DNA of 64,000 nt from Acidobacteriota bacterium (GTDB taxonomy: Bacteria > Acidobacteriota > Terriglobia > Acidiferrales > UBA7541), in the NCBI GenBank assembly GCA_003223245.1, contig QHYI01000104.1:88532-152531 (forward strand). The letters run 5' to 3'. Below are positions 53,789 through 56,272 of this stretch, in pieces. Within the stretch, counting starts at the first letter, position 1; each line of letters begins with the position of its first letter. The notes beneath the pieces were generated by a model. The model was not told the origin of the DNA, did not search any database, and was given only the letters and a program-made list of their open reading frames with translations. A program made the position numbers and the translations under genes.

Positions 53789-54259
53789 TTGTCTGACCAC
53801 AAACAGGATGAAACATTTCGCGTTATTGACCGCCGCCCTTTCACTTCCGAGGGCGAACTGCGCAAAGACGTCGTGAAAGAGGAGCGCGAAGCCAAAGTGG
53901 ACACCGCCAAGACCGCGCCAGCCGAGCAAGCGAAGGCGCCTGCGAATCCTCCCCCCGCCGACGCGCCTCAACGCGCGCCCGCGTTCGAAAGCCTCGTGCG
54001 CATGCTGGGGCAGAACGCCGCGATGGTCCTGGGCGCGTACGCCGACCCGCGCACCGGCCAGCCCATGATTGATCCCGAGGCGGCGCGCGAACTGATCGAC
54101 ATGCTCGATGCCTTGCACGAAAAGACCAAGGGCAATCTGGCGCCGGAAGAAGAAAATCTCCTTCTGGACTTGCTCGGCAAGCTCAAGCTGACTTACGTGG
54201 AGATTAATCAGGCGGTGGCTGCGCAAGCATCGACAAAAGCGAAAGCCAAAACGCGCTGA
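53789..54259 (+). CDS. DUF1844 domain protein
   Basis: A 156-residue cytoplasmic protein. A charged, Ala/Pro-rich N-terminal half (residues 1-62) leads to the DUF1844 core: FESLVRMLGQNAAMVLGAYA, then DPEAARELIDMLDALHEKTK and EENLLLDLLGKLKLTYVEIN. The domain function is unknown; it is common in acidobacteria and relatives. The start is TTG at 53789, about nine bases after TTGGGG. It precedes the MBL-RibF fusion by 54 bases on the same strand and may share its transcript. Confidence 0.85.
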   Translation: MSDHKQDETFRVIDRRPFTSEGELRKDVVKEEREAKVDTAKTAPAEQAKAPANPPPADAPQRAPAFESLVRMLGQNAAMVLGAYADPRTGQPMIDPEAARELIDMLDALHEKTKGNLAPEEENLLLDLLGKLKLTYVEINQAVAAQASTKAKAKTR

Positions 54260-54313: not shown

Positions 54314-56272
54314 ATGCCTCGTGCTCCATTAAAAATCACCGTGCTGGGTTCCGGCACTTCCATGGGCGTGCCCACGCTCGGGTGCCCTTGCCGCGTCTGC
54401 AGCTCCACCGACCCGCGCGATAAGCGCTTGCGTCCCTCCATTCTAATTTCCCGCGACAGCCACAACGTGGTCATCGACACCACTCCCGACTTTCGCCAGC
54501 AGGCCATGCGCGCCGGGCTGCACCGCCTCGACGCCATTCTGCTCACCCACGGCCACGCCGACCACATTCTCGGGTTCGATGATATTAGGCCGTACAACAT
54601 TCACCAGCGCGCGGCCATTCCGGTTTACGGCAATGAGGACACCTTTCGAATCATCCGGCGCATCTTTGCCTATGTCTTCGACGACAAGCCCACGCTGAGC
54701 ACCGTGCCCAGCGTCATCCTGAATGTCGTCCGCGAGCGCCCCTTCGAATTGCTTGGCATCCCATTTGTTCCCATCCCCCTGCTGCACGGCGATGTCAAAG
54801 TGCTGGGTTTTCGCTTCGGACGCGCCGCCTATCTCACCGATTTCAGCACCCTTCCGGATTCTTCGATGGCGCTGCTCGAAGGGCTCGACGAACTCATCCT
54901 CGACGCGCTGCGCGACGTCCCTCATCCCATGCACCAGACGGTCGATCAAGCCCTCGCGCTCATCCAAAAGCTCAAGCCCCGCCGCGCCTGGTTCACGCAT
55001 ATTGCCCACGACCTCCCTCACGCCGAAACCAACGAACGGCTCGTGAAACTCGGCTTCCCTTACGTGCAACTGGCTTACGACGGCTTGCAGTTCGAAGTTC
55101 GTGCGGATGCAGCCGATGAGCCCTTCGATGAACGGGAAGAACCCACCGGACGGCGCGCAACCACTCTAGTGAGCGGAACGCCGCGGTTCTCCACGTTCAC
55201 TTCTTCGGAAGCCTGGGCTTCGCGATTTGGTAAGTCTGGTCACAGCAGCGTGCTGGCCATCGGCAGCTTCGATGGCATCCATCTTGGCCATCAGGCCATT
55301 TTGCGATCTGTCGCAGCTCGCGCCCGCGCGCTCAACGCGGTGCCGACCGCGCTGACCTTTGACCCTTCGCCGCGGAAAGTCCTTCGGCCGGAGGAGGCGT
55401 CTCCGCAACTCTCGACCATTGCTCAGCGCCTCGCCGGATTCCGCGCGCTCGGACTGGAAGCCGCCGTCGTGCTTCCTTTCACGCTGGAATTGTCGCGCCT
55501 CACACCCGAACAGTTCGTCGAACAAATCCTCCTGCGCGACTTGCGCATCAAAGCGCTGTTTGTCGGAGAGAACTTCCGCTTCGGCCACAAGCAAGCCGGC
55601 GATGTGAATTTGTTGAGAAACCTGGGCGTTCAACACCACTTCGAAGTCGTGGTGCTTCCGCCGGTGATTTGCCGTGGAGAAGTTGTCTCGAGCACGCTCA
55701 TTCGCAAGGAAATCGCAGAGGGCGACGTGGCCCGCGCCGCGCGGCTGCTGGGACGCCAGTTCGTCCTCACAGGCGAGGTGATTCCCGGCACAGGCACCGG
55801 CCGTCGCTTCACCTTTCCCACGTTGAATCTTTCCACCGAACAGGAATTGCTCCCCGGCCGCGGGGTTTACATTACCCGTACCAGCCTCGACGGCGAGCAG
55901 CGCAGCCGCCGTTCGGTCACGAACGTCGGCAGCCGCCCCACCTTCAACAGCTCGACCCTCAGCCTCGAAACGCACGTTCTGGACTGGTCCCAAGGTTTGA
56001 ATGTAGCGGCGGACTCGAGTCCCCCCTCCGGCGTGGCGCCCGCCGACGCGTCGGCCGCACCCCACTCCCGCGCCCCCAAACGCATCGAGGTCCGCTTCTG
56101 GGAACGCCTTCGCGACGAGAAGAAATTCAGTGGCCCCGAAGAACTGCGCGCGCAAATCGCACGCGACATCGCCGCCGCCAACAGGTTTTTTTTGCGTCTG
56201 CGGCGTCTCAGATCAATTCGTCAGCCCGTCCCCTCTCGCCGGTCCTCCAGCGAATGGTGGGTGGTGAGGTAA
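54314..56272 (+). CDS. ribF: Fusion of a PhnP-like metallo-beta-lactamase hydrolase and RibF
   Basis: A single 652-residue frame with two enzymes. Residues 1-255 are a metallo-beta-lactamase-fold hydrolase (GSGTSMGVPTLGCPCRVC, metal motif THGHADHILGF), similar to PhnP-type phosphodiesterases. A linker (about 256-305) leads to a bifunctional riboflavin kinase/FAD synthetase: VLAIGSFDGIHLGHQAIL (adenylyltransferase), ENFRFGHKQAGDVNLL, SSTLIRKEI, then the kinase part GTGRRFTFPTLNLS and NVGSRPTFN. The kinase domain carries an Ala/Pro/Ser-rich insert of about 28 residues before RIEVRFWERLRDEKKF. The two parts are usually separate genes; no stop or start signal is seen at the joint. Confidence 0.9.
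   Translation: MPRAPLKITVLGSGTSMGVPTLGCPCRVCSSTDPRDKRLRPSILISRDSHNVVIDTTPDFRQQAMRAGLHRLDAILLTHGHADHILGFDDIRPYNIHQRAAIPVYGNEDTFRIIRRIFAYVFDDKPTLSTVPSVILNVVRERPFELLGIPFVPIPLLHGDVKVLGFRFGRAAYLTDFSTLPDSSMALLEGLDELILDALRDVPHPMHQTVDQALALIQKLKPRRAWFTHIAHDLPHAETNERLVKLGFPYVQLAYDGLQFEVRADAADEPFDEREEPTGRRATTLVSGTPRFSTFTSSEAWASRFGKSGHSSVLAIGSFDGIHLGHQAILRSVAARARALNAVPTALTFDPSPRKVLRPEEASPQLSTIAQRLAGFRALGLEAAVVLPFTLELSRLTPEQFVEQILLRDLRIKALFVGENFRFGHKQAGDVNLLRNLGVQHHFEVVVLPPVICRGEVVSSTLIRKEIAEGDVARAARLLGRQFVLTGEVIPGTGTGRRFTFPTLNLSTEQELLPGRGVYITRTSLDGEQRSRRSVTNVGSRPTFNSSTLSLETHVLDWSQGLNVAADSSPPSGVAPADASAAPHSRAPKRIEVRFWERLRDEKKFSGPEELRAQIARDIAAANRFFLRLRRLRSIRQPVPSRRSSSEWWVVR

Follow-up and report, generated by a model that had tools for sequence, protein, structure and literature searches.

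A metallo-beta-lactamase (MBL) hydrolase and a complete RibF are joined in one gene of a soil acidobacterium, and this fusion is real and inherited within one lineage of soil acidobacteria. Judging from sequence and from analogy with a characterised relative, the product is probably a flavin protein with three functions: synthesis of FMN, synthesis of FAD, and cleavage of FAD itself or of its ADP-linked breakdown products. The gene lies in the window analysed here, a stretch of 64,000 nucleotides from a draft Acidobacteriota genome (6.31 Mb, 95.8% complete, 237 contigs), and its features, together with the gene preceding it, are as follows.

53789..54259 (+): DUF1844 gene, directly upstream, a conserved neighbour (Pfam PF08899, 7.9e-21)
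54314..56272 (+): fused ORF, predicted Fpd-like MBL hydrolase plus RibF (riboflavin kinase/FMN adenylyltransferase), supported by Pfam and NCBIfam and by genomes of the same genus
54314..55105 (+): MBL hydrolase domain, residues 1-264 (Pfam; nearest solved relative 6B9V, Fpd)
54383..54400 (+): C24-P-C26-R-V-C29, with H232 a likely structural metal site (alignment to PhnP C-x-C-x2-C)
54548..54565 (+): H79-G-H81-A-D83-H84, putative dinuclear metal motif, with H158, D176 and H229 as further ligands (alignment to PhnP and 6B9V)
55106..55234 (+): linker, residues ~265-307, poorly conserved, predicted disordered at 268-287 and strand/helix at 288-307
55241..55696 (+): FAD synthetase (FMN adenylyltransferase) domain, residues 310-461 (Pfam PF06574, 7.2e-45; G[NS]FDGxHxGH and SSTxIR motifs conserved)
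55748..56191 (+): riboflavin kinase domain, residues 479-626 (Pfam PF01687, 1.6e-29; GxGxxxxxPTLN motif conserved)
55994..56065 (+): kinase loop insert, residues 561-584, low-complexity and predicted disordered (pLDDT <50), present in the window (L001), L032, L034 and, in a different sequence, L040

The frame encodes 652 aa with no internal stop, and its three Pfam domains (Lactamase_B_2 at residues 50-230, FAD_syn at 310-461 and Flavokinase at 479-626) all score far over their curated cut-offs. The RibF half also passes the NCBIfam RibF model TIGR00083 (226 bits against a cut-off of 184). Two proposals of an earlier, sequence-only reading of this DNA are thereby borne out by frame and domains, namely that one uninterrupted frame joins the hydrolase to RibF and that the riboflavin kinase/FAD synthetase is complete. 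The protein consists of the MBL hydrolase (1-264), a disordered linker (~265-307) and the complete RibF (308-632). It resembles the bifunctional riboflavin kinase/FMN adenylyltransferases 2x0k and 1mrz in having both RibF domains with conserved motifs, but differs in its N-terminal hydrolase, its linker and, in a few species, the kinase loop insert. Each half is single-copy in the source genome, so the fusion is the sole RibF detected there.

The fused frame was found in 30 of the 36 genomes of the genus examined, in independent assemblies, including three loci cut by contig ends (L117, L132, L137). The remaining six comprise four two-gene loci (L167, L169, L170, L171), one locus with a frameshift in the linker (L168, the same one as in L057) and one genome with a trivial match only. 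In a scan of public genome contigs, the closest loci among the acidobacterial relatives inspected carried the same uninterrupted frame. Because the frame is common to most of the genus, loss of a stop codon through sequencing error is excluded. More generally, the idea that a missing stop or a frameshift error merged two genes in this assembly is refuted by the identical frame standing open in genomes assembled independently; nothing was found in its favour beyond the window coming from a draft of many contigs, and its probability is negligible. The sequence-only reading had left the matter between a fusion shared with other acidobacteria and two separate genes in all relatives, and it is the former that was encountered, both within the genus and at one locus beyond it. 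This locus (L158:1625-3445) belongs to a different genus of the same family; its fpd-ribF fusion has a far shorter linker and is the one confirmed among the family's other genomes, a part of which were read base by base. Of 40 regions elsewhere that were checked on account of their long open frames, L158 alone proved to be fused outside the genus.

Several loci depart from this pattern. At six loci from other families (L139, L140, L147, L155, L156 and L157) hydrolase and RibF lie in frame with one stop (TGA or TAG) between them, one mutation short of fusion or readthrough. At L057:3944-5841, from the same genome as L138 and L168, a frameshift in the linker parts the two frames, through either an error of sequencing or a genuine second separation of the genes. 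One genome (G334) carries, beside its fused copy, a second and more divergent adjacent fpd-ribF pair (contig C16:11258-13065; 50% and 43% identity), either a paralogue or contamination. Another of the same genus (G336, 95% complete) has no significant fpd or ribF match, owing either to a missing contig or to true absence.

In a tree of 60 loci based on both domains (a quick tree with SH-aLRT support and no bootstraps), three state changes are needed. One is a gain at the base of a clade formed by 27 distinct fused loci plus L057 (SH-aLRT 97), another is a separate gain in L158, which groups with separate-gene relatives (SH-aLRT 100), and the third is the L057 frameshift; the outgroups lead us to infer gain rather than loss as the direction of change. 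A sister clade in the same genus still keeps hydrolase and ribF as separate genes. Where the two genes are separate, the stop of the hydrolase and the start of ribF mostly overlap, as ATGA or GTGA, or lie almost in contact, and this includes pairs of the sister clade such as L060 and L063. Since RibF occupies a different frame in these pairs, they could be fused by a small indel immediately ahead of the overlap, and the overlap in the sister lineages suggests that two adjacent genes were fused when such an indel removed it.

Adjacency of fpd and ribF is old and common in Acidobacteriota. Among 70 genomes of the phylum at least 90% complete, tallied by hand from listed coordinates, 42 contain the hydrolase; in 26 of these it is fused to ribF or lies next to it, and in one more a gene-sized gap separates the two. 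The earlier statement that the two enzymes are normally encoded separately is thus true, but in this phylum they are commonly neighbours. Outside it, adjacency was seen in none of six Bacteroidota-like genomes with a full MBL match, a small sample of fragmented assemblies; that the hydrolase of these relatives does not lie beside ribF is a point against the reading as a trifunctional flavin protein. In the part of the window read, the immediate neighbours are homologues of DUF1844, MazG, Fur, RseP and Dxr, with no phn genes. The DUF1844 gene stands upstream in nearly all loci inspected, and its persistence beside fpd-ribF is a possible clue to DUF1844 function.

On sequence comparison and modelling, the hydrolase half is best read as the orthologue of Fpd, an acidobacterial diphosphatase of the PhnP family (6B9V; Beaudoin et al. 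2018, Biochem J 475:261). Against solved proteins it scores 322 bits with 6B9V (~53% identity), 177 with Brucella proteins and 53 with E. coli PhnP. An AlphaFold model built from 52 sequences of the window and the loci (with a mean pLDDT of 87.7) also finds its best fold match in 6B9V (TM 0.94 by target length, 1.5 A), the match to PhnP (3g1p) reaching a TM of ~0.76. The protein in 6B9V presumably comes from the acidobacterium Koribacter versatilis; at the loci whose hydrolases most resemble it (~63-65%), ribF is also next to or near the gene. The window hydrolase shares the metal motifs of 6B9V and the ribF neighbourhood of its acidobacterial homologues, but 6B9V stands alone, whereas the predicted Fpd domain of the window forms the N-terminus of a protein fused to RibF. 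Because identity to 6B9V is only 53%, substrate specificity may have shifted.

PhnP itself (5-phosphoribosyl 1,2-cyclic phosphate phosphodiesterase) shares the MBL fold, and both its C-x-C-x2-C site and its HxHxDH motif can be aligned; by analogy with PhnP, C24, C26, C29 and H232 would bind a structural metal. However, assignment as PhnP proper is rejected, since the window hydrolase, whose gene context is ribF, falls below the cut-off of the PhnP model TIGR03307 (87 against 272 bits) and is far closer to 6B9V. The earlier description as a PhnP-like MBL hydrolase therefore holds as regards the MBL fold and the motif THGHADH (residues 78-84 of the fused protein), but the label is corrected to Fpd.

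The 6B9V entry is titled 'Crystal Structure of a New Diphosphatase from the PhnP Family', and PMC7599082 gives it as an FAD photoproduct diphosphatase with Mn2+, Beaudoin et al. being included in its reference list. The earlier suggestion of a link to damaged flavin nucleotides is supported. Structures of the Brucella relatives were obtained with GMP and AMP.

Both halves are, on the sequence evidence, under purifying selection. No fused homologue with sequence at these positions deviates in the metal ligands H79, H81, D83, H84, H158, D176 and H229 or in C24, C26, C29 and H232, and the core RibF motifs are equally invariant. In the hydrolase and FAD synthetase domains most pairwise dN/dS values lie between 0.04 and 0.13; those of RibF are similar to those of the hydrolase, with a few outliers, most of which occur at low divergence. 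Taken together, the conserved ligands and motifs and the low dN/dS indicate that both enzymes have been kept functional. The linker varies in length and sequence among fused homologues and gives dN/dS mostly of 0.2-0.55, with values over 1 for two closely related pairs that differ little; it is under loose constraint only. In the AlphaFold model residues 268-287 are disordered, and the N-terminal edge of RibF (288-307) contains a short strand and a helix. With the linker unconserved and a pTM of 0.60, a fixed interface between the domains finds no support. Internal re-initiation yielding free RibF was also considered and rejected, as a search of 31 linkers for in-frame starts preceded by a Shine-Dalgarno-like sequence yielded none that is conserved, weak or unusual starts falling outside the criterion.

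From its family and intact motifs, the RibF half would convert riboflavin to FMN by phosphorylation and FMN to FAD by adenylylation. By comparison with its relative, the two-metal site of the hydrolase would cut the pyrophosphate of ADP-linked FAD breakdown products, and the domain probably also cuts FAD and ADP-sugars, giving AMP plus FMN or a sugar phosphate. A single polypeptide would then unite synthesis and the clean-up of FAD debris in a constant 1:1 ratio. The gene of Fpd was reportedly chosen for its clustering with FAD genes, and the enzyme is reported to cleave FAD photoproducts, FAD and ADP-sugars and to be almost inactive on riboflavin 4',5'-cyclic phosphate.

The titles of many of the source MAGs with fused or adjacent fpd-ribF (records L031-L069) read 20-100 cm, which suggests soil 20-100 cm deep, where FAD photoproducts made by light should be scarce; MAGs from deep soil sit oddly with an enzyme named after photoproducts. 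Such an origin would suit a protein whose real substrate is FAD, or ADP-linked metabolites such as ADP-sugars, and which both makes and degrades FAD and so sets the FMN/FAD balance. The adjacency to RibF is accounted for equally well in that case, and the breadth of the relative's substrates, as given above, includes these compounds. Nevertheless, an unregulated synthase-hydrolase pair would waste ATP, and the protein showed neither a regulatory domain nor a conserved interface. FAD turnover as the true role is rather unlikely, if worth keeping in mind. Far more doubtful is a domain that opens riboflavin 4',5'-cyclic phosphate (cFMN) or a damaged cyclic nucleotide in the way PhnP acts on cyclic phosphates. 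The superfamily and metal motif are shared with PhnP, and cFMN is a genuine product of FAD breakdown (PMC12838640). Against this stand the similarity scores, much higher for the diphosphatase 6B9V than for PhnP, and the missed PhnP cut-off. The near inactivity on this compound reported for the relative points the same way, and the cyclic FMN substrate of the sequence-only reading is accordingly disfavoured.

A different question is whether the joining matters at all, as both enzymes might work as before in a fusion made by an indel without functional effect. That would concern the coupling and not the activities, and it has somewhat less than an even chance. The variable linker, with its dN/dS well above the values mostly <0.13 of the domains, is consistent with it; the separate genes already overlap, so that one small indel suffices, and a sister clade of the same genus retains them apart. 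On the other side, the fusion has persisted while 27 distinct fused loci diversified, with at most one interruption (L057), and it arose a second time in L158. The converse, an enzyme that keeps its own cofactor clean because the hydrolase is coupled to RibF, is a speculative proposal to which only a low probability is given: FAD debris or excess FAD would be cleaved and the flavin returned to synthesis, in dark soil and after non-photochemical damage.

The partners and their genomic adjacency are essentially already known, and it is the domain arrangement that is new. A literature search for a link between PhnP and riboflavin kinase, or for a described fusion, returned none, which is weak evidence as most subscription papers were outside its coverage. 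The fusion does not reveal a new pathway. A fusion fixed across a lineage, with an independent second one, is direct evidence placing this PhnP-family diphosphatase in flavin metabolism, and it offers a single protein in which the coupling of cofactor synthesis to damage control can be tested.

The low-complexity insert of 28 residues noted earlier in the kinase is real. It spans residues 561-584 and is a variable loop of recent origin, predicted to be disordered and found in few homologues. It makes the window protein ~24 residues longer than a close relative lacking it, and a look for repeats within it gave nothing of note. Among 29 fused homologues with sequence at this position, the insert occurs only in the window, L032 and L034, while L040 carries one of different sequence.
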